DNA of 64,000 nucleotides, taken from contig JAJDTL010000051.1 of the NCBI GenBank assembly GCA_022827195.1, positions 1-64,000 of the forward strand, in the 5' to 3' direction. The translations under genes and the position numbers were made by a program. The notes under the pieces are model-generated. The model was given only the letters and a program-made list of their open reading frames with translations, was not told the DNA's origin and did not search any database. Source of the stretch: Caldilineaceae bacterium. GTDB taxonomy: Bacteria; Chloroflexota; Anaerolineae; Caldilineales; Caldilineaceae. Of the stretch, positions 45,314-60,689 are shown piece by piece. Each line of letters opens with the position of its first letter. The stretch's first letter is position 1.

Positions 45314-46108
45314 CTACACATCCAGTACTGCCCTCTGCGCCGCACTGAGGCGCGCCGCCGTCTCCGGTCGGAAAAGGGCCCGCTGGTCGGTCTGCTGCGG
45401 CACATTGCGCCAGCAGTAGTAGCAGTGGATCGCACGGCGCGGTTCGCTTGAACGGTTGAGCGTACCGCCGTGCCACGTCTGCGCGTTGAAGACGAAGACC
45501 GTCCCCGCTTCGCCCAGGACCATTATCTCGTCCGGATGCGGCGCCTGCGCGTCGTCCAGATGCTTGCGCGGGTCGAGCCCCAGTTTGTGCGAACCTGGGA
45601 CCAGCCGCGTTGCGCCGTTCTCGTGCGTGAAATCGTTCAAGAGCCAGATCGAATTGCAGGCATAGTACCGCTTGCTGCTGTCCGCAGGCGATGGCGCGAC
45701 GCCGGGAATCTGATACGCCCCGTCAGTGTGCAGCGCCTGCAGGCCTTCACCCGGTAGCGCCGCCCGTGAATTGAGCGAAGAGAGCCGCAGGTCGCCGCGC
45801 AGCACATGGGACATCGCCGCCAGCACCTTGGGATGCGTCCAGATCAGGTCAAAGATTGGGCCCTTGTTGACCAGGTTCGCGAGCCGGGCCGTCCCGGCCT
45901 CCTGATGGACCTCCTTGCCCGCTTCCTCACCTTCCGCCTCCTCCAGCGCCTGCAGCCGCGCCCGCAACGCCTGCACCTGTTCCGGTGTCAGGACACCCGG
46001 TAGCGGCAGATAGCCGTTCTCGTCCAGCGCCTCCTTCTCGGCAACCGTCAGCGTATCCTGGCGCACGCCAAGGGCGCGCAGTGCACTCCCAATGTCCATC
46101 GTTTTCAC
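45314..46108 (-). CDS. Phytanoyl-CoA dioxygenase (PhyH) family oxygenase
   Basis: A 264-residue Fe(II)/2-oxoglutarate dioxygenase. The iron ligands are H127 and D129 (ALHTDGAY) and H213 (AQTWHGGTL), and R224 or R225 probably binds 2-oxoglutarate. PhyH homologues hydroxylate many small molecules in bacteria, so phytanoyl-CoA is not implied. A GTG start at 46106-46108 with AGGAAA five bases before it was kept; the ATG three codons later is an alternative. It is the last gene of a minus-strand cluster with two Gfo/Idh/MocA proteins. Confidence 0.88.
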   Translation of the reverse strand: MKTMDIGSALRALGVRQDTLTVAEKEALDENGYLPLPGVLTPEQVQALRARLQALEEAEGEEAGKEVHQEAGTARLANLVNKGPIFDLIWTHPKVLAAMSHVLRGDLRLSSLNSRAALPGEGLQALHTDGAYQIPGVAPSPADSSKRYYACNSIWLLNDFTHENGATRLVPGSHKLGLDPRKHLDDAQAPHPDEIMVLGEAGTVFVFNAQTWHGGTLNRSSEPRRAIHCYYCWRNVPQQTDQRALFRPETAARLSAAQRAVLDV

Positions 46109-46120
46109 CGTCTTTCCTGC

Positions 46121-47272
46121 TCACGACCGGCCCAAACGCCAGGTCTCAGTGTCGACCAGTTCCAGCCTTCCGCTCTCCGCCGAACGCAGCCCGGCGTCGA
46201 GGATCGCCATCACCTCCAAATTGAACGCAAGCTCCAGCGTCTCGTGCAGAGGGTCGCCCGTCTCGAGCCGGTGAATGAACTCCCGCGCAATGTCCGTGCG
46301 GCCCCCCGGCATCGGGCTGCACTCGTGGTACTCCGTCTCCCCGCCGCCCCTCTCAATCCGTACCCGAACAGGCTGATTGGCCGGCTCCTTGTCCACGACC
46401 AGCGTACCCTTTGTTCCGTAGACGATCGGACCGAGCGTCACGCCGTGATCGCGGGTTGTCCAGGACGCCTCGCATAACGCCATAGCCTGCGGAAAACGGA
46501 TGAGCATGGCCGCGTTGTCCTCGGCATCACCCCAATGGCTGTCTAGGTTGGCTCGCATCCCCATCACGGCAGAGGCTGGCTCGCCCACCAGCCAGCGCGC
46601 CACCAGCGAGCCGTAACAGCAGTAATCGAGCATAGCACCCCCACCGGCCGCACGCTGATGCCACCAGGTAGCGCCCCGCTCCACACCGCTCAGCTTGCGC
46701 GGGATTCCCTGACTGTCCTCGTCCCCGCCAGGATGGGAGACGCCCGCGCCCAACGGTCCCAGATGGCCGCCCCGCCACTTGACCGTCAGGACCCGCCCGA
46801 TCGCGCCGCCCTCTATCAACTCCTTGGCTTTGTGCGAGGCAGGCTGCCACGTGATCGGCCAGTTGACGACCAGTTCGATGCCTGCTGCCCGCGCTGCTCG
46901 GGCCATGCGCAGACCGTCCTCCAACGAGGAGGCCATCGGCTTCTCGATCATTGCGTGAACGCCCTGACCCGCGCACGCCTCCACAACCGCAGGATGTTGC
47001 CCGTTCTCAGAGCAGACGACGACGATGTCAAGACTCTCCTGTGCAAGCATCGCACGGTAGTCGTCGTACGCCTTCGGCATCCCCAGGTCGTCAAGCGCGT
47101 GACGCAAGTTCCAAGCACGCGTATAGTGAGCCTCGCGCAGCTCCGGCGCCAGCGGCGTCGTGTCCGCGCAGGCCGCCAGCTCCGCCTGCGGGTGCGACGC
47201 AAAGCGTTCGAGAAGATGGTTGATATGCATGTGGGCAAAGCCGATGGCGCCGATGCGGTAGGTCTTTGTCAT
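46121..47272 (-). CDS. Gfo/Idh/MocA family oxidoreductase (second of cluster)
   Basis: A 383-residue dehydrogenase. The N-terminus YRIGAIGFAHMHINHLLERF replaces the usual GxGxxG with G-x-x-G-F-A-H, as in a subgroup of this family, so cofactor binding may differ. The family EKP motif is present (AMIEKPMASSLEDG). The C-terminal part has WHQRAAGGGAMLDYCCYGS. It lies 12 bases before the PhyH gene and 51 bases after the other Gfo gene, so one operon is likely. The substrate is probably a sugar, cyclitol or amino sugar. Confidence 0.87.
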   Translation of the reverse strand: MTKTYRIGAIGFAHMHINHLLERFASHPQAELAACADTTPLAPELREAHYTRAWNLRHALDDLGMPKAYDDYRAMLAQESLDIVVVCSENGQHPAVVEACAGQGVHAMIEKPMASSLEDGLRMARAARAAGIELVVNWPITWQPASHKAKELIEGGAIGRVLTVKWRGGHLGPLGAGVSHPGGDEDSQGIPRKLSGVERGATWWHQRAAGGGAMLDYCCYGSLVARWLVGEPASAVMGMRANLDSHWGDAEDNAAMLIRFPQAMALCEASWTTRDHGVTLGPIVYGTKGTLVVDKEPANQPVRVRIERGGGETEYHECSPMPGGRTDIAREFIHRLETGDPLHETLELAFNLEVMAILDAGLRSAESGRLELVDTETWRLGRS

Positions 47273-47323
47273 ACGGTCTCTTTTGCGAAAACTGTTGAAT
47301 CCGATTTTTGCCGCCCCCGACGG

Positions 47324-48433
47324 TCAGAACGTCGTCCGCAGCTGCTGCGCCTGCCCCGACTCGGCCGAACGGTACGCGGCGTCGAAAATCTCGATGACGT
47401 GACGCGCATGCTCCGCGGTCGACGTCGTCGGAATATCCTCGCGAATCCAACGGACCAGCTGCATCACGTCCTCGTAGACGTGCGCCTCTTCCATATCCCG
47501 GTGCGCGCCGACCGCATGCGGCAGCGCCGTCTGCGTCCCGTAGGCCTCATCGATCTCCCGGCCCGGGTAGTCGAACGCCTCGCCATTCAGCATGCCGCCG
47601 TTGATGACTCCCTTGGTGCCGAAAATCAAGGGACGGTCCATGCCGGGCAGGCCGCCGGCCGCGACCCCGTAGACAAACGCGAACAGGCTTTCGCCAAAAT
47701 CGAGGACCATCAACGTGTTGTCGTCCATGTCGGTAGGTAGCATCTCGCCGTAAAACTCCCTCTCCTTCACGCGTACACCCGAAAAGGCGGTGACAGCCTT
47801 TGCCGGCCCTAGAATTCCCGTCATTGCGTGCAGGCCGTAAACCGTCATGTCGTAGAGCGGACCGCCGCCCGGTTTGCGGAAATACCACGCCGGGTTGACG
47901 TTGCTGAGCGGGTCGTTTCCGCCCCGCACCCGTTCCTCTTCGTGGTAGCGTCCGAAGGCCGCCCCCGTTACGGCCCAAGTTAGCCTCCCCAGCACGCCCT
48001 CTTCGATCATCTCCTTGATGCGTTGATGACGCGGCCGCAACATCTCCCCTGGGCAGGAGACCAGCTTGACCCCCTTTGCCGCGGCCGCCGCGATCACGGC
48101 ATCGGCCTCGTCCACGGTCGTCGTCATCGACTTGTTGAAGTGAACGTGCATGCCAGCCTCCACGCACTGCATCCCCTGCTCGAAGTGGAAGCCGATCGGC
48201 GAGGCGATCGAGACCGCGTCGACCGTGCCGGAGTCCAGGAGCTCCTCCGCGCTGGCGTAGAAATTGGGCACGCCGAACCTGGCCGCGGCCGCCTCAGCCC
48301 GCTCCACGACCGGGTCGCATACGGCGGTGACATTGACTCGGTCCTGCACGTCCTCCATCGTCAGATGCGGCAGCAGCCCGCGAATCGAAATACTGCCCGT
48401 ACCGATGATGCCCAGCCGTACGATGTCGCTCAT
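47324..48433 (-). CDS. Gfo/Idh/MocA family oxidoreductase (first of cluster)
   Basis: A 369-residue dehydrogenase with a classical Rossmann motif LGIIGTGSISIRG. The EKP position reads HFNKSMTTTVDEAD, with N-K-S in place of E-K-P; the lysine is kept. AWYFRKPGGGPLYDMTVYG is the C-terminal domain's substrate loop. GGGAAG precedes the ATG. It begins the Gfo-Gfo-PhyH unit and has its own promoter about 150 bases upstream. The substrate is not known. Confidence 0.88.
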   Translation of the reverse strand: MSDIVRLGIIGTGSISIRGLLPHLTMEDVQDRVNVTAVCDPVVERAEAAAARFGVPNFYASAEELLDSGTVDAVSIASPIGFHFEQGMQCVEAGMHVHFNKSMTTTVDEADAVIAAAAAKGVKLVSCPGEMLRPRHQRIKEMIEEGVLGRLTWAVTGAAFGRYHEEERVRGGNDPLSNVNPAWYFRKPGGGPLYDMTVYGLHAMTGILGPAKAVTAFSGVRVKEREFYGEMLPTDMDDNTLMVLDFGESLFAFVYGVAAGGLPGMDRPLIFGTKGVINGGMLNGEAFDYPGREIDEAYGTQTALPHAVGAHRDMEEAHVYEDVMQLVRWIREDIPTTSTAEHARHVIEIFDAAYRSAESGQAQQLRTTF

Positions 48434-48585
48434 TGCAGACTTCCCGTGTGAATGTGTTTAAGTCAGACGTTGGCGTCCACGCGTCACCGCTTTCGACCGG
48501 CGGTACAGCCTGCATCTGCCCCTTTCCCGTGCACATGCAGCACCGTCAAGAGCCGCCCGTATCTCGTCCGGACCTCCATTACGCG

Positions 48586-48614
48586 ATTGTATCATGGCGC
48601 CATTTGGCGAACAA
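48586..48614 (-). promoter_or_regulatory. Promoter of the Gfo-Gfo-PhyH unit
   Basis: On the minus strand TTGTTC (48609-48614), 17 bases, TACAAT (48586-48591) preceded by TGA. It sits between the isomerase stop and the first Gfo start, so the three downstream genes can be transcribed separately from the isomerase. Confidence 0.65.
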
Positions 48615-48628
48615 CAGGTATCCCCTGC

Positions 48629-49402
48629 TCAGGACAGCCCCATTTTCGCCAGGTTGCGGTAGCTTGTGGCCAGGCTCTCGAAGGGATCGCCCGGGCAGAT
48701 GTCCTGCTCGACAGCGTACCATTCAACTTTGGCTTCACGGCAGGCCTCGAGGATGCCCGGCCAGTTGAGGTTACCCTCGCCGACCTCCTTCATCACCTGC
48801 TCCCGCCAGCTGACAGTTGCCATGTCCTTCAGATGCACGACCGGCATGCGGTCCTTAACGCGCAGAATCCAGTCGCACACGTCGCCGCCTCCGAACTGGA
48901 TCCAGTAGGTATCCAGCTCCGCCTGCACGTAACGGGGATCGGTCTCATCAAACAGGATCTCCAACCCGTTCCTGTCACCGTAGCGAATGAACTCAAAACT
49001 GTGGTTGTGGTAGCTGAAAGTCAGGCCGGCCTCGTAGAGCGTCCGCCCCACTTCTGTCGCTTCAGCAGCAAACTGGCGGATGCCCGTCTCGCCTTCCTCG
49101 ATGAAATGGCGCGGCATACTGCCCACCGCGACGTGCCTGCACGCCCAAAGATGATGCTCCTCGATGACCGCGTCGATATCCTCCTGCAGACGAGGCCAGG
49201 CAATATGCGTATTCACGATCGTCAAACCGTTGTCGTCGCAGATTCGCTTGACGTCAGCCGGCTCGATTGGGCCGATCGCCGACACCTGCGCCGCCCTGTA
49301 TCCGATCGCACTGATCTTGGCCATCGACTCAGCGAACCCTTCCACGGTCTGCGTATGGTCCCGCACGGTAAACAGCTGCGCGGCAAGTACGTTCCGGCCC
49401 AT
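48629..49402 (-). CDS. Sugar phosphate isomerase/epimerase (IolE-like TIM barrel)
   Basis: A 257-residue AP-endonuclease-2-type TIM barrel. LAAQLFTVRDHTQTVEGF at the N-terminus, IVNTHIAWPRL, FSYHNHSFEF and VQAELDTYWIQFGGGD carry the metal ligands typical of this family, as does PVVHLKDMA. The start was set at the ATG at 49400-49402, preceded by GAGGAGAAAAGGA; the much longer frame upstream runs over the heptamer repeats and is not supported. It probably isomerises a keto-sugar or dehydrates an inosose as part of the pathway formed with the two Gfo dehydrogenases. Confidence 0.9.
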   Translation of the reverse strand: MGRNVLAAQLFTVRDHTQTVEGFAESMAKISAIGYRAAQVSAIGPIEPADVKRICDDNGLTIVNTHIAWPRLQEDIDAVIEEHHLWACRHVAVGSMPRHFIEEGETGIRQFAAEATEVGRTLYEAGLTFSYHNHSFEFIRYGDRNGLEILFDETDPRYVQAELDTYWIQFGGGDVCDWILRVKDRMPVVHLKDMATVSWREQVMKEVGEGNLNWPGILEACREAKVEWYAVEQDICPGDPFESLATSYRNLAKMGLS

Positions 49403-49594
49403 TCCTTTTCTCCTCTTTTCGTCCGAACAGTTGACAAGGTCTTTTAAGGCAGTTCCAAAGGCCAAGTAAACAATGGACTGTCCCGCGCGCGCAAGTTTCG
49501 TGGTCGGCGCTGAACTACGGCTGCAGTCCAAATCTGTGTCGCAACATTCCACGCGTATGAGAGCAACCGGGTCATATCCCGCCCCTGCAGTACC

Positions 49595-49629
49595 TGGCCT
49601 CCGACCACTGGCCACCGACCACCGACCAC
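49595..49629 (+). repeat. Heptanucleotide tandem repeat (five units)
   Basis: Five 7-base units: TGGCCTC, CGACCAC, TGGCCAC, CGACCAC, CGACCAC, consensus YGRCCAC. They lie in the 627-base divergent gap between the isomerase and the seven-gene operon. Related heptamers occur at 60702-60715 and 62969-62982. Confidence 0.75.
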
Positions 49630-49667
49630 TGCCCTTGGACGGTCGGGCCGATCCGGCCCTCCCTTGT

Positions 49668-49686
49668 GCGGGGGGAGTCCCCCCGC
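49668..49686 (+). repeat. Perfect GC-only hairpin in the divergent gap
   Basis: GCGGGGGG (49668-49675) and CCCCCCGC (49679-49686) form an eight-base-pair stem with a three-base loop. No T-run follows on either strand. Apart from this, the heptamers and the promoter near 49970, the 49403-50029 gap holds no gene I can support. Confidence 0.55.
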
Positions 49687-49963
49687 AGCGCCCCCCTGAC
49701 ACCTCTCCTCCAGCTCCGGGACGCGACTTTTGCAAAGTTAGAGTTCAGCGACCGGTAGGCAATGCCACCGTGCCCGCGCGAATCCAGCCCGCCGCCAGCG
49801 CGCCGCGGGCATGATGCAGCCGTTGCTGTTGCGGTTGCTGAAAACTCGAAACGCAAAACGGAAATCTGCCTTTTCCCGCATGGTCTCCCCGCCGGACAAT
49901 TTCTATCCCAACTGTGGGCCGCACCCCTGAAATACAACATCGTCTGGCTTGAAATCGATGCTG

Positions 49964-50029: not shown

Positions 50030-50311
50030 ATGACCGACAAATCGGTTGACGAGACGCTTGCCGCGGTTCGTCAATGGCAGATGGTGCTGCCCGCGCTCCT
50101 TTTCCTCGCCGGACATCGTCCTCTCGCCTTCCTCCTTGGGCAGACTCTCCTGACATTGCAGCCGCTCGCCGCGCTCCTCGGCCTCGACCGGCTCGGCCCC
50201 TGGGCCAAACTGCTGTCGCAGCCGGACGGGCTTTCCGACCTGACCGCGCGCTTGGCTGCCATGCAGGAGGAAGATGAGCGCGCGGTCCCCCGCCGGGAGG
50301 CAGAGGCGTGA
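50030..50311 (+). CDS. Small hypothetical protein, first gene of membrane operon
   Basis: A 93-residue protein with one or two hydrophobic stretches (MVLPALLFLAGHRPLAFLLGQTLLTLQPLAALL, here described in parts) and a charged C-terminal helix ending in an acidic/basic tail. I do not recognise a family. No strong ribosome site is visible (GAAACGCTGAA before the ATG). It overlaps the next gene by GTGA, which supports it as a real coding gene, as does its strong third-position GC bias. Confidence 0.65.
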   Translation: MTDKSVDETLAAVRQWQMVLPALLFLAGHRPLAFLLGQTLLTLQPLAALLGLDRLGPWAKLLSQPDGLSDLTARLAAMQEEDERAVPRREAEA

Positions 50312-50913
50312 TCTTCCACCTGCATCAGGAACGTCTTGCCGCGTCCTGGCGCCGGCGGGCGGATACGGCCGTTGAGCACGGTCAGACGCCCGCGCTTTCG
50401 CTCGGACTCGGCGCCCCTTTCCGTCACAGTTGCCTTGGACTGCTCGCCCTGGGCCGGGTCGCCCATCAACACCTGGGCCCGCAGAACCCGGTTGTGATCG
50501 CCGGCGGCGACGGCTGGCTCTGGCTGCTGGCGTCGCTCGTCTGGCGGCCCGCCGCCCGCCAACGCGCAACCGTCGCCAGACCGGCCGGCGATCAGACCCG
50601 TGGTGTCGACGACGCCTCCCGCTTGGTCCTCTATTCCGGCGCGGACAGCGCCCTATACGCCGCTTCGCACAACATTGCGGCGCTCGACAGCGACCCCGCT
50701 GCACTGCCGCCGGGACTGGACTGGACCGCATCGCCCACTGCAGTTCCCGCGGCCGAAGGATCCGAGAGCGAACTGCTCGCACAGATCTTCGTCCCCGAAA
50801 ACCATGCGCCCAACGGCTCCGAACCGGATGCACACGACTGGCTGCAGAAGGCTGGAGGTTGGGCGGGCGGTCTGTTGGCGCTAGGCCTGCTGGCAGCCGC
50901 ATTTTTCGGGTAG
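50308..50913 (+). CDS. Hypothetical protein with C-terminal membrane anchor
   Basis: A 201-residue protein starting at the GTG that overlaps the preceding stop. The N-terminal half is soluble and Arg/His-rich (HLHQERLAASWRRRADTAVE), with a Gly-rich stretch LGLGAPFRHSCLGLLALG. The middle is acidic, and one membrane segment closes the protein (AGGWAGGLLALGLLAAAFFG), so it is probably tail-anchored with the body in the cytoplasm. No known domain is recognised. The next gene follows after six bases. Confidence 0.65.
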   Translation: MIFHLHQERLAASWRRRADTAVEHGQTPALSLGLGAPFRHSCLGLLALGRVAHQHLGPQNPVVIAGGDGWLWLLASLVWRPAARQRATVARPAGDQTRGVDDASRLVLYSGADSALYAASHNIAALDSDPAALPPGLDWTASPTAVPAAEGSESELLAQIFVPENHAPNGSEPDAHDWLQKAGGWAGGLLALGLLAAAFFG

Positions 50914-50919
50914 CAGACG

Positions 50920-51549
50920 GTGTTCTCTTCTCGCTCGGGCTGGTCCAACCGCATTGGACTGCTTGTCGTGCTGGCGTGCGCCCTGGTGGTGATCTCCGCT
51001 CGCTTCGACCTGGCGGTCGCGCCGGCCGCGCTGGCAACGACCCTCTACGGCTGGGCTCTCCTGCTGGGGGCTTTCGCGCTGCTCTTGGGCGTTCTCAACG
51101 CCCTCTGGTATCACCTGCTGCGCGTGCAGCGCGGGCAGAAGGAATGGCTCCTCAGCCTCCTGCTGCTTGTAGCGTTCGCCCTCGTGTTTGGGTCCGGTGT
51201 CACTTCGCCGCAGGGGTCGGCCGCGCCCCTGGCCGAATGGGTCTTCGACGCAGTCCTGGCGCCGGGGCAGTCGACGCTCTTCGCCCTGACCGGCTTTTTC
51301 CTGCTGAGCGCGGCCTTCCACTACCTGCGCATCACCCGTCCCGGCGGCCTCTGGATCCTTGCCGGCGCCCTTCTGATGCTGCTCGTGCAGACGCCGGTCA
51401 CCCATCAGATCATGCCCGGGGCTCTGGCCGGCCTGTTCGACTGGCTCCTGAACTGGCCAGTGACTGCCGCCATGCGCGGTGTCCTGCTTGGAGGCGTGAT
51501 CGGCCTGCTTCTGATCGGCATCCGCCTCATTTTGCGAAGTGCAAAATAG
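50920..51549 (+). CDS. Polytopic membrane protein, about six TM segments
   Basis: A 209-residue, almost wholly hydrophobic protein starting at GTG six bases after the previous stop. Segments include IGLLVVLACALVVISA, LYGWALLLGAFALLLGVL, WLLSLLLLVAFALVFGSG, STLFALTGFFLLSAAF, LWILAGALLMLLVQTP and GVLLGGVIGLLLIGIRLIL. No charged motif suggests transport or catalysis. Unknown family; membership in the operon is the only clue to its role. Confidence 0.75.
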   Translation: MFSSRSGWSNRIGLLVVLACALVVISARFDLAVAPAALATTLYGWALLLGAFALLLGVLNALWYHLLRVQRGQKEWLLSLLLLVAFALVFGSGVTSPQGSAAPLAEWVFDAVLAPGQSTLFALTGFFLLSAAFHYLRITRPGGLWILAGALLMLLVQTPVTHQIMPGALAGLFDWLLNWPVTAAMRGVLLGGVIGLLLIGIRLILRSAK

Positions 51550-51634
51550 CCTGCAAAGATGGTAGTAGCGGCGCTTACCGGCGGCTGACTCCACCTCTTG
51601 CCCGCATCATCCCGACCTGGAATCTGCAATACCG

Positions 51635-53002
51635 ATGCAGACGCTCGACTGCCCACACTGCGGATACAGCAACACCGACGCTTCCCGCTTCTGCGAGCAA
51701 TGCGGCACCATCCTCGCGCGCAGGCCGCCGCCCACGCCTGCCGACCCTGCGCCGACCCCGCAGGACCCAACAGCAGCCGAGCGCAGCGGTTCCGAAGAGG
51801 GGCAGGGGTCGGAGGAACCTGTCCTTGGGCAAAGATTGCACGGTCCGCCGGCCGCGGGCGGCGAATCCGGCCAAGACCCTGAGTCCGACGCGACGCCCCT
51901 GCAGGACGACACGAAGCCGGAGCCCCTTCTGGGCGACCTTCCGGGCCTGCTCGAACCAGCGGACCCGCTTGAGTTCGCCACCGCAGGCTCCCGCATTTCA
52001 GAGCTTGGGACAGAAGGGCACAGGTCGCCGCCCGAGGCTGTCGATGAGGAATTACGGCGCCGGCTGCGCGAACTCTTCTCAGCCGAGCTCCCTCTCGACG
52101 CAGGGGTGGCGGCCGGCACGCCCCGCGATGCCGGCGCAGACCGACAGGTCGGCCGCGGCTTGCAAAGGCGCTTTCAACTTGAGTGGCTCCTGCTGCTTGT
52201 CCTGATCGTCGCCTATCTGCGCGCTGAACCGGCGCCGCCTGGCGGAACAGCGTCGCATCCCCTGCCTGGTCTGCCGCAGGCCCACCGGCAAATCGCAACG
52301 CTGCCTCCAAACAGTCTCGTTCTGGTGAACTGGGCCTACGACCCCGCCACCGCCGGCGAAATGGACCGAGCTGCTCAGCCGGTCATCGAGCATCTCCTGC
52401 TGCGGCGTGCAAAGCTGATCGTCGTCAGCCAGCTGCCCGCGGGACTGGCATCGGCGCGCCGGCTGATCGCAGAAGCCGAGGATGCCGTCCGCCAGCCGGG
52501 CCGCCCACAGGGGGAGACAAGCGTCGTCATCGAAGCGGGCTTTCTACCCGGCGGGGCCGCCTCCCTGCCACTGCTGGGCGTCGCCCCCGCCCGAGCGCTG
52601 CCGCTCGACCCAGGCCGGGTCGACCTCAAGGACCGCTTTACCCTCGCCGGCTTGGAGGCAACCGACACCGTCCTCCACCTGGTAATCGCCGCCCGCAACG
52701 AGGATGTCAGGCACTGGCTGGAGCAGGTCCAGCCGCTTAACCAAGTGTCCGTGATTGCCGTCACCAGCGCCGCGGCCGACATTCCATTGCGCCCCTACCT
52801 GCAAAGCGGGCAGCTCGCCGGCCTGGTCAGCGGCTGGGACGGCGGCAGCGCATACCGCCTCCGCTCGGAAAGGGCCGCCGGCCCCGAGGAAAGGGCTGTC
52901 GCGGGACGCCTGGTCAGCGGCCACAGTTGGGGATTCGGCATCCTGATCGTCGCCATCCTCCTTGGCAATCTGTCCGGCATTGCCGAACGGAGGCAACGTT
53001 GA
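51635..53002 (+). CDS. Zinc-ribbon membrane protein of uncharacterised family
   Basis: A 455-residue protein. A zinc ribbon opens it (C6, C9, C20, C23 in CPHCGYSNTDASRFCEQCG). An acidic/Pro-rich linker of about 150 residues follows, then a membrane segment (LEWLLLLVLIVAYLRA, about 187-202). The globular part (about 215-430) holds LPPNSLVLVNWAYDPATAGE, a Rossmann-like region with KLIVVSQLPAG, and PLRPYLQSGQLAGLVSGWDG; it ends in another membrane segment (FGILIVAILLGNLSG). From memory, similar globular parts occur in uncharacterised membrane-cluster proteins of other bacteria, but I cannot name the family. Its TGA is overlapped by the TTG start of the next gene. Confidence 0.75.
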   Translation: MQTLDCPHCGYSNTDASRFCEQCGTILARRPPPTPADPAPTPQDPTAAERSGSEEGQGSEEPVLGQRLHGPPAAGGESGQDPESDATPLQDDTKPEPLLGDLPGLLEPADPLEFATAGSRISELGTEGHRSPPEAVDEELRRRLRELFSAELPLDAGVAAGTPRDAGADRQVGRGLQRRFQLEWLLLLVLIVAYLRAEPAPPGGTASHPLPGLPQAHRQIATLPPNSLVLVNWAYDPATAGEMDRAAQPVIEHLLLRRAKLIVVSQLPAGLASARRLIAEAEDAVRQPGRPQGETSVVIEAGFLPGGAASLPLLGVAPARALPLDPGRVDLKDRFTLAGLEATDTVLHLVIAARNEDVRHWLEQVQPLNQVSVIAVTSAAADIPLRPYLQSGQLAGLVSGWDGGSAYRLRSERAAGPEERAVAGRLVSGHSWGFGILIVAILLGNLSGIAERRQR

Positions 53003-53889
53003 GCTCCTTCGGCGGAACTCTGCCCGGCTCGCTGCAGGATGCCGGCCTGCTACTCGGCCTCATCATCTCGCTGGCCATCGGTAGCTGCCTCATCCGCGAC
53101 AACGTCCTTGCCCGCCTCGCCCAGTACATCCTCGTTGGCGCCGGCCTGGGCTACATGGCAGTTGTCGCCTGGAGCAATGTCCTATGGCCGCAGCTGATCG
53201 CACCCTTCATGGCAGACCCCGCGTCGTGGCTAAGCGCCGAACGTCCGGAAGACCTGCAAAACCGGCTGCCGCTCCTGCTTGGGCTGGTCATGTGGCTGGG
53301 GGGCCTGGACCTGCTGTTCAGGCCGCCTGGCAAGTGGAGCGGACGGCGGCTGCTGCGGCTGCTGGCGGTGATACCGGCCGCCATTCTTGCCGGCGCCGGC
53401 CTCGGCGTGGGCCTCAGCGGCGCGCTGCAGGGCACGTTTTGGCCCCAGCTCGCGGCCGCGGTCGATCTCAGTCAGGCCAACCTCTCCGCCGCGCCCGCGG
53501 GAACGTCCGCCGGCGGGCAAACGCTATGGCTGCTCAGGCTTCTCACCCTGGTGATCACCGGCGGCGTCCTGGTCCACCTGCGGACGGGCCGCTCGGGCCT
53601 CGCCGCGAGTGAGCGACCCGCTTCCGAACCATCTTCGCGCGACATCGTCCCGCTCAGCACGGCCGCCGGGCCGGCTCCCCTGGCACGAGGCGCTCTTGCC
53701 AAGGTCCTGGCTGCCTGGGAAGGCGTCGGGCGCCGTGCCCTCTGGCTGGCTGCCGGCATGATTTTCGCCCGCCTGGTCGCGGCCCGGTTCACCCTCATCC
53801 TGGCCCGGCTGGAGTACTTTATGTTCGAGCTTCCCCGCAGCGAGCTCTGGCAGCTACTGTGGGCGGCCGCTCGGGGAGGCGGACAGTGA
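52999..53889 (+). CDS. Polytopic membrane protein, uncharacterised
   Basis: A 296-residue protein with about six membrane segments. The start was set at the TTG that overlaps the previous stop (TTGA); an in-frame ATG 72 bases upstream lies inside the preceding gene. Segments include GLLLGLIISLAIGSCLI, YILVGAGLGYMAVVAW, LPLLLGLVMWLGGLDLLF and LLAVIPAAILAGAGLGVGL, then two more near the C-terminus. A hydrophilic stretch around residues 205-235 is probably cytoplasmic. I recognise no family. Its stop is overlapped by the MutL-like gene (GTGA). Confidence 0.7.
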   Translation: MSSFGGTLPGSLQDAGLLLGLIISLAIGSCLIRDNVLARLAQYILVGAGLGYMAVVAWSNVLWPQLIAPFMADPASWLSAERPEDLQNRLPLLLGLVMWLGGLDLLFRPPGKWSGRRLLRLLAVIPAAILAGAGLGVGLSGALQGTFWPQLAAAVDLSQANLSAAPAGTSAGGQTLWLLRLLTLVITGGVLVHLRTGRSGLAASERPASEPSSRDIVPLSTAAGPAPLARGALAKVLAAWEGVGRRALWLAAGMIFARLVAARFTLILARLEYFMFELPRSELWQLLWAAARGGGQ

Positions 53890-55184
53890 GCCATTCCGAC
53901 CTGCAGCCGGCCCCAGCGCCCGGTCGCGCAAGCGCGACACCATCACTGGCAGACTTCGCGCCCAAAAACATCCTTCTCCTGGGCGCGGAGCCCCGCCGCG
54001 CAACCGCAGCTCTGATCGAACCTGTCGAAGAAATCTACCGTCTGATGGGATGGCAATCTACCGACCTGCCCGCCGACGCAAGCCCCGGTCAATGCGCCGC
54101 CGCGCTTGTGCAAGCGGTAAACCGGCTGGAGAACCAGTTTGACATCTCCCTTTGGAGCGAAGAGGAGGACCGGCCCCGGTTGCACACCTACGACCCAGCC
54201 CTCGTTAAGGGCGTCGGCCAGGCGGTTGCGGTGGCCGATTTGCTCCCGCCGCTGCGCGTTTGGATGGCCGGCCTTTCCGGCGGCACAAGCCTGATCGCCA
54301 GCCGGGACGCGCTCGCCGGTGCCCTCTGCAACTGCGTCGCTACCTACCGCTACAGCCCCTGGCACAGCACGGACGAGCTCGCGGCGGAACTGGAGCTGCT
54401 GCGCCCTGACGTCATCCTGGCCGTGGGCGGTTACCAAGAGACCGACCGGCGCGGCCAGGAGCAGGTACTTGCCTTGTGCCGCCACGTCATCGACGCCGCC
54501 GTGAAACTGCCCTTCGAGGACCGGCCACTCTTCTGCTTTGCCGGCAATCGCCAGTCGGCCCAGGCTGCGCTTGGCTATTGGCACGGGCGGACTGAGGGCA
54601 GCGCGGCAGTGCTGGCCGCCAATGTGCTCGCACCGAACGCCGGCCAGCGCGACACAGCCCTGGCCAGAGTGCTGGAACAGCACCACTGGCAGCGCTCCCA
54701 ACAGATGCCAGCCATGCGCAGGATTGCCGGCTGGCTCAACCATGCGCCTGAGCTGCGCAGCACTCAGTGGGCATTCGTTCAGGCGGTCAGGCTCTGGGCG
54801 CAACACCATCGGCTCACCTCTTTGCACGGCCTCTACGCGGCCGCCGACCGCTGGCTGCATGTGTGGACGACCGGCACGGCCGCCGACGCAGGGCGCGAAG
54901 GTCAACGCCAGGCGACGGGGCCGTTCTCGCCGGAGGGCGCCGGGCTGCGGCTCTGTTACGTTCGCCCCGGAGAGCGCCCGGACTTTCTGGCCGGCTGGCC
55001 GGCGCTGCGCCTTGTGAGCGGTCCGTGGCCCGAACAGTGGCCGCGCCCCGTCAGCCACTGGTGGGATCCACTGGGCCTTGTTCCCGTCGTCGCAGGCGCA
55101 GGCCAGGTCGCGCCCGAAGCCTCCTTACAGGTGCTGTCGGCAGACATTCTGGAAGAGACCGGACCCCCTCTCCGTCGCGCTTGA
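53886..55184 (+). CDS. Degenerate MutL (glutamate mutase activator)-like protein
   Basis: A 432-residue protein. The GTG start overlaps the previous stop; a longer in-frame ATG lies inside that gene. From about residue 28 it resembles the N-terminal half of the glutamate-mutase-associated MutL family (ASKHA ATPase fold, unrelated to mismatch-repair MutL): NILLLGAEPRRATAALIEPV where the phosphate-binding DxGxxxTK motif would lie, then LRVWMAGLSGGTSLI (about 123-137), LRPDVILAVGGYQETDR (172-188), RPLFCFAGNRQS (213-224) and NVLAPNAGQRDT. The nucleotide motif is lost, and the protein is shorter than full MutL (about 450-650). No glutamate mutase genes are here. The assignment is by remembered pattern. 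Confidence 0.55.
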   Translation: MSHSDLQPAPAPGRASATPSLADFAPKNILLLGAEPRRATAALIEPVEEIYRLMGWQSTDLPADASPGQCAAALVQAVNRLENQFDISLWSEEEDRPRLHTYDPALVKGVGQAVAVADLLPPLRVWMAGLSGGTSLIASRDALAGALCNCVATYRYSPWHSTDELAAELELLRPDVILAVGGYQETDRRGQEQVLALCRHVIDAAVKLPFEDRPLFCFAGNRQSAQAALGYWHGRTEGSAAVLAANVLAPNAGQRDTALARVLEQHHWQRSQQMPAMRRIAGWLNHAPELRSTQWAFVQAVRLWAQHHRLTSLHGLYAAADRWLHVWTTGTAADAGREGQRQATGPFSPEGAGLRLCYVRPGERPDFLAGWPALRLVSGPWPEQWPRPVSHWWDPLGLVPVVAGAGQVAPEASLQVLSADILEETGPPLRRA

Positions 55185-55272
55185 CGCAAAGGGCCTGCAT
55201 GACGAAAATGGGGTCAGTTCCGCACAGAAAAACCAGACCGACCAAAGGCAGCGCACCGACCTTGGGGGTACC

Positions 55273-56652
55273 ATGTCTGTTGCGTTACGTCTGTCCGACG
55301 GCGGATACATGCGAAAGACGGACATCGAACACATCATCCGGATGCTCTGCAGCGCCCGCTGCGTCGAGGTAACCGGTTTCAGCAACGTTGGAAAGTCCTC
55401 GCTGATGCGCCTGCTCGCCCAGGCCGACGTCTGGCTGCACAACCTGGGCGAGGAGGGCGGCGCCTATCTCCCTGTCTACATCGACTGCAACCGCATTCTC
55501 GACATGTCTGACCAGGGCTTCTATGAACTGGTGCTCCGTTGCCTGCGCGAAAGCAGCCCCGCCCTGGCGGCAGACGCGGTGCTGCAGACCGCCTACGAAG
55601 GCCTCGTCGCGCCTGCGAACGACTTTCAAGTGCCTCTCAACTTCAGCAACGGCCTCTCTGCCGCCCTCCAGAACAGCCACTACAATCTTATCCTCCTCTT
55701 TGACGAGTTCGACGAGCCTTTCCAGGAAATCGATCCGCGCGTCTTCCTCAACTTGCGCGCCAAAAAGGACCTGTTCGGCAACCGGCTCGTTTACGTTACG
55801 GCAACGGTTTGGCCGCTCGCCGAGCTTTGGCCAGGCGAGCACAGCGGGGAATTCGGTGAGCTCTTTTCCCATCAGCCCTGGCATCTCGGCCCCCTCCCGC
55901 ACCATGATGTGGAACACTATATTCGCAGTTTCGCCGAGCACAACGACGTCGAACTCTCCTCGCAGGACGTCGGCTTCGCCTACCACTGGACCGGCGGTCA
56001 TCCCGGCTACCTGGAAGGGGTCAGCAAGCTGCTGGGCGGCGCTGCCGCCGAACTGGAACGCCGGGGCGACGATGAGAAGGGGCGCTGGGCGCTGCACCGC
56101 GACCTTGCCGAACAGCTTCGCCAGGACCCCACCCTGCACACCGAGAGCGAAAAGATCTGGCACAGCTGCATGCCGGACCACCAGGAGGCCCTCAGGAGCC
56201 TCTTCTCTTCAAAGGAAGCCGATAGCGCCAGCCTTGCCCATCTGATGAAGCACCATATCCTGAAGCACGTGAAGGAAGAGTTGCGCGTCTTCAGCCGGCT
56301 CTTCGCCGAGTATGTGCTTGCTTTTCAAACCGACACCGGCGTACCGGAACGGCCCCGGGTCGAGCGCAAGGATGGCGAGTTTCTCGTCGGCGGCCGTCAG
56401 ATCGAGCTCTCCAAACTGGAGATTCGACTCATGACGCTTCTCTACGAAATGAGGAACAGGACTGTCGAGAAATTCGACATAGTCTCCGACGTCTGGGGAG
56501 AGGACTTTCTGGGCGAGGTGGACGATGCCCGCATTGAGAAACTGGTCAGCCGCCTGCGGCAGAAAATCGAGCCGGATCCCGCCAACCCGGTCCTGATCGT
56601 CACCATTCGCGGTCGAGGGTACCGGCTCCAGGCCGAATCCGGGGAACCTTGA
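55273..56652 (+). CDS. AAA-type ATPase fused to OmpR-like winged helix
   Basis: A 459-residue protein. The start was set at the ATG after GGGGGTACC; the frame is open further upstream over the end of the MutL-like gene. An N-terminal P-loop ATPase domain has Walker A GFSNVGKSS (residues 35-43) and Walker B LILLFDEFDEP (139-149), with GGHPGYLEGV, typical of the STAND/ATPase_2 group. The last 95 residues are a PhoB/OmpR winged helix: LSKLEIRLMTLLYEMRNRTV, then VSRLRQKIEPDPANP and IRGRGYRL. There is no receiver domain, so ATP or a partner, not phosphorylation, would control DNA binding. As the last gene of the operon it may regulate it or be localised by its membrane proteins. Confidence 0.85.
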   Translation: MSVALRLSDGGYMRKTDIEHIIRMLCSARCVEVTGFSNVGKSSLMRLLAQADVWLHNLGEEGGAYLPVYIDCNRILDMSDQGFYELVLRCLRESSPALAADAVLQTAYEGLVAPANDFQVPLNFSNGLSAALQNSHYNLILLFDEFDEPFQEIDPRVFLNLRAKKDLFGNRLVYVTATVWPLAELWPGEHSGEFGELFSHQPWHLGPLPHHDVEHYIRSFAEHNDVELSSQDVGFAYHWTGGHPGYLEGVSKLLGGAAAELERRGDDEKGRWALHRDLAEQLRQDPTLHTESEKIWHSCMPDHQEALRSLFSSKEADSASLAHLMKHHILKHVKEELRVFSRLFAEYVLAFQTDTGVPERPRVERKDGEFLVGGRQIELSKLEIRLMTLLYEMRNRTVEKFDIVSDVWGEDFLGEVDDARIEKLVSRLRQKIEPDPANPVLIVTIRGRGYRLQAESGEP

Positions 56653-56810: not shown

Positions 56811-57344
56811 ATGGCTGAATCCACGCACGCAGGCGAAGCGCAGGAACCGCTGGTCTTCAGAGGGCGGCCGAAGTCGATGGTCTCGGCGGCCGCTCTGCTG
56901 ATCGCCGGAATCCTGACATTCTCAATGGGCATCAACCGCCTCTTCTTCGTCGAGGCCATCGCCTATACCTTTCTCATCTGGGGCGCGCTTCTCATGTATG
57001 GCCACATGATCGACATTGGTACGGTCTTTGAGGTAACCGATGACGCCTTCGAGCTGAGGAGCCCGCTGCGCTTCTGGGCATTGTCCCGTAAGTGGGATTG
57101 GGGCCATGTCACCCGGCTCGATCTGATCGTGCCCCGGATGGAGGCCGCCGCAGGCGACGTCGAAATGCAGGTCCACTACACGCCCGAAGGCTCGACCGTT
57201 CTCTACCGCGAAGACATTCCCTTCATTCCCGCCCTCGCCGAAGAAATCGCCGCCCGCGCCGGCCTGACGCCCGAGAGGCAGCAGGAAATGCAGTCCTTCG
57301 ACTCGATTCCCCAGGAAGAAAAAGCGACCTACACCTGGAACTAG
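56811..57344 (+). CDS. Small membrane protein with PH-like domain
   Basis: A 177-residue protein. Two adjacent membrane segments (VSAAALLIAGILTFSMGIN and FVEAIAYTFLIWGALLMYG) follow a short cytoplasmic N-terminus with RGRPKS. After them comes a beta-rich region (TVFEVTDDAFELRSPLRF to STVLYREDIPFIP), which resembles the bacterial PH-like (bPH2/YdbS-type) arrangement of two TM helices and a PH-fold. The C-terminus is acidic and disordered. Function unknown. It has its own promoter and stands apart from both neighbouring operons. Confidence 0.7.
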   Translation: MAESTHAGEAQEPLVFRGRPKSMVSAAALLIAGILTFSMGINRLFFVEAIAYTFLIWGALLMYGHMIDIGTVFEVTDDAFELRSPLRFWALSRKWDWGHVTRLDLIVPRMEAAAGDVEMQVHYTPEGSTVLYREDIPFIPALAEEIAARAGLTPERQQEMQSFDSIPQEEKATYTWN

Positions 57345-57400: not shown

Positions 57401-58561
57401 TTAGCCCTGCTGGTGGGCTGATATGTCGAGCAGGTAGATCTGGCGGCCGTTTCCGCCGTGCGCCGAGTCGACTGTAACCAGCTTCCCGTCCCGGCTTGAA
57501 CGCGGGTGCAGATCGCAGCGCCACTCGCCCGTATAAGCGGGGAAAGCGGCAAACTCGCCCAGCTCAATTCGTTCGCCCCGTTCAACATTAAACAGATACA
57601 GCTCCTGCACGCTTCCCGCGCCGCGCGCGACCGGATAGGTGTCGTTCAGGATCCAGTTGGCGTCGGCAAGGTAAGTGCAGTGCCCGTTCAACGTCATCAC
57701 CCCTTTGCCGATCACCTCCACATCCTGCGTGCCGTCCCGGTAAACGTAGAAGGCGTCGCCGTGAGAGGGATGTCTCGCCCAGGCCAGGATATGCTCGGGG
57801 TCGCGCCAGATGAAGTGGGAAGTATGGCCGTACTCGTCCACCGCGTAAATCTCGGAGCCGTCAACCGCGGCCGTCATCATGCGCGTGCCGAAGCCCGGCC
57901 CGCCCAGACGCCAACGGTGCAGGAAGATAAAGCGTGAGCCGTCGGTGTTGAACAGCAAATGGTTGAAGTAATGCCGCGCCTCACCGAGGTTTTGGTGCGG
58001 ATACGGGATCGCAGCCACTTGCGCGATCGAGATCAGAAACTCAGCTTCGCCAGTCTCCAAGTCAACCCGGTAAATGCCGGCGTCGTCCGGCGCGAGCCTT
58101 TCGAAGTTCGGGTCCGGGATGCCGGCGTAGCCGTAGCCAGGCCTCATGTGGTTGATTCGGCGGAAGTCTGCGCCGATAGCCGTACGGCCGTCCGGTGACA
58201 GCGTGTAAATCGGGAACCCAATCGTCCGTTTTTTGCCCGACTTCACGTCCAGAACGTGGCAGATAAAGCGGTCGCCTTCTCGATCGTTCCAGATGACCTC
58301 GCTGTCAGAGCCCGGAATCCACTGCAGCATGCAACCCTGCTGCCAGCACCACGCCCGCGTCTCACCCAGCTCGATCCAGCGGTCGCCGTCGGCCAGGTCG
58401 ATCATCCCCACGCCGATCACGTCCCCGGCAGCCGGCGAACGGTGCTCGAAATCGACCTCCATCGCCAGCACGTAGCGGCCCGTCGGATCGAACTGCAGCT
58501 TGTCATAGTACCCGAACCAGTGATGCTTCGGTCCGGAGGTGATCGGGCGCGCAATCGTCAT
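57401..58561 (-). CDS. Beta-propeller protein, oligogalacturonate lyase/TolB-like
   Basis: A 386-residue protein without signal peptide. Repeated strand patterns such as FDPTGRYVLAMEVDF, LSPDGRTAIGADF, FNTDGSRFIFLHRW and HPRSSRDGKLVTVDS indicate a PD40-type propeller of about seven blades. The N-terminal SGPKHHWFGYYDK and the paired histidines (HFNHLLF region, GHTSHFIWRD) resemble the cytoplasmic oligogalacturonate lyase group, whose histidines bind a metal. Whether it is a lyase is uncertain. It follows the peptide-type ABC transporter genes at 30 bases on the same strand and is probably the last gene of that operon, which hints at handling the imported compound. Confidence 0.75.
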   Translation of the reverse strand: MTIARPITSGPKHHWFGYYDKLQFDPTGRYVLAMEVDFEHRSPAAGDVIGVGMIDLADGDRWIELGETRAWCWQQGCMLQWIPGSDSEVIWNDREGDRFICHVLDVKSGKKRTIGFPIYTLSPDGRTAIGADFRRINHMRPGYGYAGIPDPNFERLAPDDAGIYRVDLETGEAEFLISIAQVAAIPYPHQNLGEARHYFNHLLFNTDGSRFIFLHRWRLGGPGFGTRMMTAAVDGSEIYAVDEYGHTSHFIWRDPEHILAWARHPSHGDAFYVYRDGTQDVEVIGKGVMTLNGHCTYLADANWILNDTYPVARGAGSVQELYLFNVERGERIELGEFAAFPAYTGEWRCDLHPRSSRDGKLVTVDSAHGGNGRQIYLLDISAHQQG

Positions 58562-58591
58562 CGTACTCTCCCAGCTCTGGGCCGCTTCAGG

Positions 58592-59608
58592 TCAGACCGC
58601 TTCCGCGCCCGCCAGGTCGAGCTCTTCGGCAAAGTGGCAGGCGACAAACCGCCCGCCCGCGGCGCCGCGCAACTCCGGCGTCTCCTCGCGGCAGCGCTCC
58701 TGGACATAGCGGCAGCGCGGATGGAAATAGCAGCCGGACGGCGGATTGGAAGGATCGGCCACCTCGCCCTCCAGCACAATCCGCTCGTGCTGGCCGTGGG
58801 CGGGACCGGCGGTGTGGACGGCCGAAAGGAGTGCTTCGGTGTAAGGATGGAGTGGCTTACGGTAAAGGTCGTCGGCCTCGGCCAGCTCGACCAGCTTACC
58901 CACGTACATCACCGCCACCCGGTCGCTAATGTGCTTGACGACGCCGAGATCGTGGGCGATAAAAAGATAGGTCAGGTCCAGCTCCCGCTGCAGAAACTTC
59001 AACAGGTTCAGGATCTGCGCCTGCACCGAGACGTCCAACGCTGAGACCGGCTCATCCGCGATCACCAGCGTCGGGTTGAGGATCAGCGCGCGGGCAATGC
59101 CGATGCGCTGGCGCTGACCGCCGCTGAACGCATGAGGATAACGCGTGACGTACTCGGGACGCAGGCCGACCAACCGCAGCATCTCCACGACCCGGTCCTC
59201 CAGCTCGGACCCCCGGGCCATTCCATTCAGCCGCAGCGGCTCGCCGACAATATCCAGGATCGTCTTGCGCGGGTTCAACGACGAATAGGGGTCCTGAAAG
59301 ATCATCTGCAGGTGCGAGCGCACCGGCCGCAGCGCCGCGTGGTCCATTGCCGCCAGTTCGTAGTTCTCGCCCTCTTCGCCGTGCGGACGAAAATGGACCG
59401 CCCCGGCCGTCGGCGCGTAGAGGCGCATGATCAGCCTGCCCACAGTCGTCTTGCCGCAGCCGCTCTCGCCCACGAGGCCCAGCGTTTCTCCCTTATGCAA
59501 GGTGAAGTCGACCCCGTCTACCGCCTTGATGTGGCTGACCACCTTCGAGAACAGTCCCGAGGAGATGGGAAAATGCTTTTTCAGCCCGCTGACTTCGAGC
59601 AGCGGCAA
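58592..59608 (-). CDS. Oligopeptide/dipeptide-type ABC transporter ATPase (DppF/OppF)
   Basis: A 338-residue ATPase. Walker A is [11 protein letters not shown] (about residues 48-58), the signature LSGGQ-like stretch reads [15 protein letters not shown], and Walker B is [16 protein letters not shown]-terminal oligopeptide-transporter extension follows ([19 protein letters not shown]). The start is a TTG with AAGG before it; it leaves a 13-base gap to the preceding ATPase gene. It pairs with the next ATPase as a heterodimer. Confidence 0.92.
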
Positions 59609-59621
59609 ACCTTCGCCTACG

Positions 59622-60689
59622 CTATTGATTACTGATTTCCTCTGCGGTTAAAAGGGCCTGGCCTTCTGAGGCCGGCGCCCGCTCGGCGTGCTCCGTATAC
59701 AGCAGACAGCGCACCTCGCGCCCGTCATCAAGCGCGATCGGCTGAGGGACGATCTCATCGCAGACGCCGGGCATGAAGTCGGCGCAGCGAGGATGGAATG
59801 GACAGCCGCTGAGCGTGCTGTACGGGTCCGGCACAACGCCGCGGATCGTCTGCAGCCACTCCCGCTTCTGGTCCATGCGCGGCAGCGACTCCAACAAGGC
59901 GACCGTGTACGGGTGCCTGGGATCACGAAAGATGTCGGCTGCCGTACCCGCCTCCACCACCTTGCCCAAGTACATCACCGCCACCTCGTCCGCCATGTCT
60001 GCCACCACGCCAAGGTCATGCGTGATGAACATGATCGCCATGTCCAGCTCCGCCTGCAGCCCCTGCATCAGCTCAAGGATCTGCGCTTCGGTCGTCACGT
60101 CGAGCGCGGTTGTCGGCTCGTCTGCAATCAGCAGACTGGGGTGGCAGGAAAGCGCCATCGCAATCATAACCCGCTGGCACATGCCTCCGCTCAACTGGTG
60201 GGCAAAGGCTTGCATGCGCTGCTCGGCCAGGGGAATGTGCACCTGCCGCAGCATCTCGACCGCGATCTCCTCCGCCTGGGACGAGGTGACGTCCTGATGC
60301 AGCAGGATGTTCTCGGAGATCTGGTCGCCGATGCGATGGACGGGGCTGAGCGAAGCGCGCGGCTCCTGGAAGATCATGGCAATTTCGCCGCCGCGAATCA
60401 TGCGCATCTCCGGGCCGGTAGCGGGAAGCTGCAGCAGATCTATCTCTGTGCTCTGGCTGCCCTCGTCCGCGCGGGAATAGAGGATCTCGCCGTCAACTGT
60501 ATGGCCAGGTGGGCGCACCATGCGCATGATCGAACGCGCCGTAACGCTCTTGCCGCAGCCGCTCTCCCCCACGACGCCCAAGACCTGCCCGCGACCGATC
60601 GAAAAGGTCGTGCCGTCTACCGCCTTTGCCACGCCTTCGGCCATGAAAAAATGCGTTTGCAGGTTTTTGACTTCGAGGAGCTTGTCCAT
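59622..60689 (-). CDS. Oligopeptide/dipeptide-type ABC transporter ATPase (DppD/OppD)
   Basis: A 355-residue ATPase. Walker [17 protein letters not shown] lies near residues 39-54, the signature is [15 protein letters not shown] and Walker [15 protein letters not shown]. The C-terminal extension [15 protein letters not shown] holds the cysteines that bind an Fe-S cluster in related DppD proteins. An ATG with GAGGAG upstream is the start. A 68-base gap with heptamer repeats separates it from the permease gene upstream. Confidence 0.92.

Follow-up and report, generated by a model that had tools for sequence, protein, structure and literature searches.

A conserved membrane operon of Chloroflexota and its degenerate MutL-like protein in Caldilineaceae

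Gene content of the locus

The window analyzed in the present study is a stretch of 64,000 nucleotides from a Caldilineaceae bacterium (contig JAJDTL010000051.1). The coordinates bear out the original prediction of seven genes on one strand (the forward strand, positions 50030 to 56652), with three start/stop overlaps (GTGA at g1/g2, TTGA at g4/g5 and GTGA at g5/g6) and a six-base gap between g2 and g3; the gaps at g3/g4 and g6/g7, on which the original prediction was silent, measure 85 and 88 bases.

The first six are core genes, numbered in their order. The small g1 product (50030..50311, 93 aa) contains the hydrophobic or amphipathic stretch LFLAGHRPLAFLLGQTLLTLQPL, the g2 product (50308..50913, 201 aa) has one C-terminal membrane segment, and that of g3 (50920..51549, 209 aa) is polytopic, with about six segments. 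The g4 product (51635..53002, 455 aa) consists of an N-terminal zinc ribbon, a linker, a central membrane segment, an alpha/beta domain and a C-terminal membrane segment. It is followed by g5 (52999..53889, 296 aa), which starts with TTG and encodes a membrane protein of about six segments, and by g6 (53886..55184, 432 aa), a degenerate MutL-like ASKHA protein. Membrane segments had been expected in four genes, and prediction places them in g2, g3, g4 and g5. The last gene, g7 (55273..56652, 459 aa), is a lineage-restricted accessory that joins a STAND/AAA-like P-loop ATPase to a C-terminal OmpR-type winged helix. Every gene is conserved at the protein level in other species, with dN/dS against the nearest relative of 0.11–0.37 across g1 to g8, placing the locus well beyond chance.

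Profile HMM searches of each protein detected the zinc ribbon that opens g4 (PF13240, 29.3 bits, cut-off 25), a sub-threshold similarity to MutL in g6, and nSTAND1 (27.3 bits, cut-off 27.1) and Trans_reg_C (68 bits, cut-off 26.2) in g7, and matched no known complex. These domains agree with what had been read from the sequence, including a final gene combining an ATPase with a DNA-binding domain. No Pfam or NCBIfam family was matched by g1, g3, g5 or g4 beyond its zinc ribbon, and an Rfam scan of the window was negative. The view of a membrane-bound unit unlike any described system also held, since Pfam, NCBIfam, PADLOC, PDB and the literature searched gave no match. The operon has no described function in these sources.

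It was also observed that g8 (56811..57344, same strand, 177 aa, hydrophobic segments near the start), an accessory 3' of g7 in many Caldilineaceae, lies beyond the coordinates of the original prediction. Its relatives show 49–91% identity, with a dN/dS of 0.15.

Conservation across Chloroflexota

Gene order in distant genera had been set beforehand as a test, and the outcome was strongly positive: order and strand of g1 to g6 were the same in 33/33 loci from Caldilineaceae and 34/34 from other Chloroflexota. These six genes form a real operon and a conserved functional unit. The position of g1 is constant in the majority of loci, those of Chloroflexus- and Herpetosiphon-like genomes among them, and the second slot is filled by g2 or by a DUF6754 (PF20539) protein in all 53 loci with six genes.

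Distribution was counted within Chloroflexota (a 301-genome sample, and 46 Caldilineaceae genomes for g9, described below). Among the 301 genomes, DUF6754 and g5 occurred together in 65 of the 66 genomes with DUF6754 and lay less than 8 kb apart in all cases sharing one contig (54/54), and the MutL-like gene was within 3 kb of g5 in 65/65 cases on one contig. The g4 gene was present in 45 of 46 genomes of the order, the sole exception being 69% complete, and the operon is therefore core rather than mobile. Searches of a plasmid collection with the g5 and DUF6754 proteins, and of viral contigs with the DUF6754 protein and a degenerate DNA pattern, gave no match; the g5 profile was too variable throughout to offer a stretch for such a scan. 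The operon is vertically inherited in Chloroflexota and belongs to the core genome in several lineages. Its ancestral set comprises g1, DUF6754, g3, g4, g5 and a MutL-like ASKHA ATPase, usually followed by g9 (barrel-sandwich/KOW). One genome (G285) has an intact MutL-like ATPase and no g9, and in another (G229) g7 replaces the MutL-like gene; strictly, then, not every part is required.

An anti-phage defence system might be proposed from the STAND ATPase of g7 beside uncharacterized membrane proteins. PADLOC returned no match for g2, g4 to g7 or four homologues from other loci, and the operon core is single-copy and vertically kept in whole families, neither patchy nor island-borne. Defence was dropped on these two grounds, and is the least credible of the roles considered.

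A membrane operon of six to seven genes in fixed order across much of the phylum points to an important process that has no name as yet. Among the genomes that carry it are apparently those of cultivated Chloroflexus, Roseiflexus and Herpetosiphon. In Chloroflexus aurantiacus its locus tags probably run from Caur_0251 onward, beside korAB (Caur_0249/0250). Other bacterial phyla and archaea presumably also have relatives of DUF6754, g5 and the g4 C-terminal domain. A literature search found no mention of DUF6754 or PF13941, and other searches gave nothing on function.

Degeneration of the operon in Caldilineaceae

In the original prediction g6 resembled part of MutL and had no mutase beside it, and both points stand. 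Against PF13941 g6 scored 25.8 bits, just below the cut-off of 27, with residues 113–306 aligned to the middle part of the model; a six-frame search of the genome with PF13941 (E <= 0.001) had no match anywhere. The sequence LGAEPRRAT stands where DIGxxxTR is expected, the phosphate-1 DxG is missing, and the phosphate-2 strand and C-terminal domain are deleted. ATP motifs were lost in 32/32 Caldilineaceae; almost all others retain them, as do 6/6 two-gene loci. Operon copies elsewhere in Chloroflexota have the full MutL fold (1.6e-69, 4.5e-79) and span the whole MutL/GlmL model (PF13941, NF040745) with phosphate-1, phosphate-2 and adenosine-type motifs. They differ from MutL/GlmL in an extra C-terminal domain of about 120–250 aa and in the absence of mutase neighbours, while the Caldilineaceae copies, devoid of ATP motifs, are about 150 aa or more shorter. 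The MutL-like profile had no match among PDB sequences. With its ATP motifs gone, g6 has a dN/dS of 0.21, which indicates purifying selection. Judged from its sequence, g6 seems to have been reduced from an ATPase to a pseudo-ATPase scaffold.

The homology of g6 to PF13941/GlmL could also mean that it activates glutamate mutase or another B12 mutase and that the operon is metabolic. The score was 101.7, however, against an NCBIfam GlmL equivalog cut-off of 475, the ATP motifs are lost here, and no mutase gene was seen in or next to the operon in the loci read, nor were mutase subunits (MutS/MutE) among neighbouring ORFs in the window or related loci. Canonical MutL copies elsewhere in the phylum reach 455–567 bits against PF13941, and a genome may have one alongside the operon copy (e.g. 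G221 and G335). An activator role for g6 was rejected on scores, motifs and neighbours, and the metabolic reading is largely refuted and highly improbable. The operon accounts for one use of the abundant 'MutL' genes in genomes that have no glutamate mutase nearby.

A second reduction concerns g2. Other Chloroflexota have DUF6754 in its place (4e-26, 1e-39). Alone, g2 matched nothing in Pfam, including DUF6754 at its curated cut-off, and alignment against alignment (hhalign) gave a weak match (E 8.6e-5, probability 60%, 100 columns). The two share the operon slot and the g2 profile matches, weakly, in the right place; g2 differs in having no N-terminal membrane segment, and recognizable similarity is confined to the first part of the domain. 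Slot and profile suggest that g2 is probably a reduced, diverged DUF6754 remnant. Its predicted structure (pLDDT 47) was unusable. No relation was detectable between the g4 C-terminal domain and DUF6754, or between g3 and g5.

In g4, the linker looks disordered and lacks the LPxWL repeats of its relatives. Outside Caldilineaceae, the long cytoplasmic tail of g4 carries 4–12 copies per protein (shuffled sequences gave means below 0.5), and zero copies were found in the Caldilineaceae loci scanned. Four families (f29, f47, f21, f31) have a zinc-ribbon protein, in most cases with LPxWL, directly adjoining the MutL-like gene with the membrane genes absent, an arrangement that ties the g4 tail to the ATPase. 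Some ATPase-bearing operons of family f20 have a short, repeat-free g4; LPxWL would therefore not be the sole docking site. The g9 gene adjoins the MutL-like gene in many families, is an unlinked single copy in Chloroflexus-, Roseiflexus- and Herpetosiphon-like genomes, and was not found in 46 Caldilineaceae genomes, except for two weak partial matches. Caldilineaceae have lost the ATP motifs, LPxWL repeats and g9 together, and the degeneration is family-specific. This joint loss predicts which parts act together.

The C-terminal part of g4 (residues 176–455) was modeled by AF2 as alpha/beta with a pLDDT of 68. Fold matches (best Z 8.5, Foldseek E 9e-4) were generic alpha/beta (Rossmann-type) only, with no family prominent, and absence of a family from the match list excludes nothing. 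On this moderate model and its generic matches the alpha/beta domain is tentatively Rossmann-like; its profile had no match among PDB sequences. Positive-inside bias assigns the zinc ribbon to the inner side of the membrane and the alpha/beta domain to the outer side.

The probable DUF6754 origin of g2, the working-looking ancestral ATPase with g9, and the family-specific degeneration had escaped the original prediction.

Possible function and the STAND ATPase neighbour

Direct observation covers the make-up of the operon, the order of its genes, their co-occurrence and the changes they underwent in concert in Caldilineaceae. The sequence features tentatively favor an ASKHA ATPase acting on a cytoplasmic tail in a membrane complex, whose Caldilineaceae form would be reduced to a pseudo-ATPase scaffold. 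In such a complex g3 and g5 would form the membrane core, with alpha/beta domains anchored by g4 at the outer face and by the DUF6754 protein at the cytoplasmic face. The MutL-like ATPase of most Chloroflexota would dock, possibly together with g9, on the zinc ribbon and LPxWL motifs of the g4 tail, and its ATP binding or hydrolysis may switch or assemble the complex, by analogy with ASKHA reactivases and actin-like proteins acting on their clients. In Caldilineaceae, ATP motifs, docking repeats and g9 having gone together, g6 would be a non-hydrolysing scaffold, and in some lineages the STAND-type regulator g7 was presumably acquired and may link the complex with transcription.

Actin-like/ASKHA proteins of the FtsA and PilM type dock on membrane partners, and the operon resembles these systems in encoding an ASKHA ATPase with small and polytopic membrane proteins; it differs in that no sequence match was found and docking is here deduced. 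None of the family matches of the operon proteins gives a client or substrate. It is possible, with somewhat less assurance, that an undescribed ATP-driven membrane machine is core in several Chloroflexota lineages, and that one whole family swapped its motor for a pseudo-ATPase, lost docking repeats and a partner protein simultaneously and sometimes gained a STAND regulator. If true, this would be a natural experiment on an ASKHA motor turning into a scaffold.

A transport or enzyme complex (e.g. a lipid or envelope-component transporter), with g3/g5 as permease and the MutL-like ATPase as energising or activating subunit, would also be in keeping with the pair of membrane proteins of six segments each, the ASKHA ATPase and the anchored alpha/beta domains, which could bind ligand. 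Neither g3 nor g5 has a significant transporter family match, however, and the ATPase motif is gone across a whole order while the membrane genes stay, unlike a pump, making this reading improbable.

Somewhat less unlikely is a membrane sensor or signal-transduction complex, in which g4, through its outer alpha/beta domain, and the membrane proteins would sense the state of the envelope or of energy supply and the cytoplasmic proteins would relay it, in Caldilineaceae via g7 to transcription. Consistent with this, Chloroflexus-, Roseiflexus- and Herpetosiphon-like genomes have g9 adjoining genes for response regulators and histidine kinases, and in several of these genomes g9 and the regulator genes lie next to the ATP synthase operon. 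Such receiver proteins, however, adjoin only the unlinked g9, and no known sensor domain was found in g1 to g6.

The sensor reading also draws on g7, which shares a P-loop-type ATPase (nSTAND1) and an OmpR-type DNA-binding domain (Trans_reg_C) with STAND/AAA_16 ATPases bearing such winged helices, and differs from them in having the winged helix C-terminal, after the ATPase, and in adjoining the operon in three families. Against a relay through g7, many operon-bearing genomes have it absent or unlinked: it is absent in near-complete Caldilineaceae genomes (the genus labelled g2; G034) and unlinked in several others, and therefore is not core. As the core output of the operon g7 was ruled out on this ground. 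The nucleotide-dependent transcription output originally proposed is supported only in part, and not as it was worded. In the 301-genome sample, full-length relatives of g7 (about 40% identity) occurred in only 3 genomes outside Caldilineaceae, in two of them at the operon, so g7 is not a chance neighbour.

Layout and conservation of the operon

The original prediction placed seven genes on one strand at 50030-56652, with two GTGA overlaps, one TTGA overlap and a six-base gap; the genes are present as described, and all of these junctions were confirmed. The genes are on the + strand, with GTGA at g1/g2 and g5/g6, TTGA at g4/g5 and the six-base gap at g2/g3. Further gaps precede g4 (85 bases) and g7 (88 bases), and an eighth gene, g8 (56811-57344), lies downstream of g7, as in many relatives. 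A family profile search detected a zinc ribbon in g4, a sub-threshold MutL match in g6, and a STAND-type ATPase joined to an OmpR-type winged helix in g7; g1, g2, g3 and g5 gave no family match at a meaningful level. All eight genes are under purifying selection (dN/dS 0.11-0.37 against the nearest relative). The source genome is of the Caldilineaceae type (5.2 Mb, 54 contigs). Read by eye, the flanks (45314-49735 and 57401-60689) hold apparently unrelated catabolic and transport genes (for a phytanoyl-CoA dioxygenase-like protein, Gfo/Idh-like oxidoreductases, a sugar phosphate isomerase-like protein and oligopeptide ABC ATPases).

The order and strand of the core genes g1-g6, whose conservation across distant genera would, according to the original prediction, support a functional system, were kept in 33/33 Caldilineaceae loci (one genome counted twice) and in 34/34 loci of other Chloroflexota. 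Complete six-gene sets were found at 27 of the former and 26 of the latter, and g4 was present in 45 of the 46 genomes of the order, the sole miss being a genome 69% complete. Matches to g4 were the first anchors for retrieving these loci; g5, DUF6754 and MutL matches were used afterwards. Such anchoring selects for the operon itself, so one set of 301 phylum genomes was also searched for single genes independently and the results were compared. DUF6754 (PF20539) was detected in 66 genomes, a solid g5 profile match in 70, and MutL above the cut-off in 121. DUF6754 and g5 were common to 65 genomes, an overlap whose computed probability disregards shared ancestry and means only that it is not chance, and they lay <8 kb apart in 54/54 one-contig cases; the distance from g5 to the MutL-like gene was <3 kb in 65/65 such cases. 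A single in-frame TAG falls inside the g5 match in six genomes of the Herpetosiphon-like genus g66 (G155, G079, G088, G123, G147, G326); this may only reflect a match running beyond the normal gene end.

No described system matching the operon was found in family, defence-system and structure libraries or in the openly accessible literature; within these sources, and with Chloroflexota as the genomes compared, it could be assigned to no known kind.

The unit outside Caldilineaceae

We read the form of the operon seen in other Chloroflexota as the ancestral one. There the g2 slot is occupied by DUF6754 (4e-26 and 1e-39), and g4 is typically 500-1600 aa long, carrying a zinc ribbon as well as LPxWL repeats (4-12 copies per protein scanned, versus <0.5 in shuffles). 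The exception is family f20, with a short g4 lacking both. At g6 these genomes encode a complete MutL-like ASKHA protein, about 550-750 aa long and extended by an extra C-terminal domain. In many families g9 (about 360 aa, barrel-sandwich-like plus KOW) lies directly 3' of this MutL-like gene. In Chloroflexus-, Roseiflexus- and Herpetosiphon-like genomes (the last two labels being assignments that we presume) g9 is unlinked and single-copy. Its neighbours there are a gene for a receiver-domain protein or two such genes (L138, L139, L140, L142, L143), and one of these proteins also has histidine kinase domains; at L138, L140 and L142 these genes adjoin the ATP synthase operon. Reduced loci in other families (L124, L125, L126, L127, L129) consist of a zinc-ribbon protein, in most cases with LPxWL repeats, then the MutL-like protein, usually with g9 and without membrane genes. 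A phosphoglycerate mutase-like gene lies near the MutL-like locus in two genomes of one family (L124:12983-14572, L129:9618-11201). The operon of genome G163, which we take to be probably Chloroflexus aurantiacus, adjoins a 2-oxoacid:ferredoxin oxidoreductase gene pair. This pair fits korA/korB (Caur_0249/0250) of Chloroflexus aurantiacus (PMC3150298).

Positive-inside bias, a hydropathy estimate rather than the output of a purpose-built topology predictor, averaged over 67 loci for g4 and 47 for DUF6754, places the g4 zinc ribbon, tail and C-terminus inside, its alpha/beta domain outside, and the DUF6754 domain in the cytoplasm. About six membrane segments each were found in g3 and g5. The C-terminal part of g4 was modelled with moderate confidence as a Rossmann-like alpha/beta domain, with generic matches only.

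Concerted loss in Caldilineaceae

All 32 Caldilineaceae loci having g6 have lost its DxG phosphate-1 motif and C-terminal domain, and in each the phosphate-2 strand has either been deleted or can no longer be recognised. The phosphate-1 glycine context is kept in 29/31 loci outside the family and in 6/6 two-gene loci; the exceptions are L088, where the MutL-like gene is truncated at the contig end, and L090. LPxWL repeats were not found in the Caldilineaceae g4 loci scanned, nor g9 in the 46 genomes apart from two weak partial matches. An hhalign comparison matched g2 to DUF6754 at E 8.6e-5 (probability 60%); together with the shared operon slot, this makes Caldilineaceae g2 a probable reduced relative of DUF6754. 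At L090:5746-9777 (G181; g3-g6), g6 lacks the phosphate-1 glycine and neither LPxWL repeats nor g9 were found, which may represent a second, independent ATPase loss.

As our preferred reading, though with a probability short of even, we suggest a putative membrane complex in which the ASKHA ATPase would dock on the cytoplasmic tail of g4 and act on it using ATP; in Caldilineaceae it would be reduced to a pseudo-ATPase scaffold.

The ATPase-winged-helix gene

The main rival, which we consider rather unlikely, is a sensing role with g7 as its output in some lineages. Most Caldilineaceae carry a full-length g7 relative; none is present in genus g2 or genome G034, and in G032, G037 and G040, among others, it is unlinked to the operon. 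Outside the family, relatives of about 40% identity were found in only 3/300 genomes. Two of these three lie at the operon: after g9 at L082, and in G229 (L074:5522-8411) directly after g5, replacing the MutL-like gene in its usual place. Since g7 is missing or unlinked in some Caldilineaceae yet at the operon in two of three outside genomes, it is a genuine but optional partner. G229 also carries a 1264-aa open frame with a MutL region and a cobalamin-binding-domain-like N-terminal part (L144:4233-8027), apparently a fused mutase-type protein not related to the operon.
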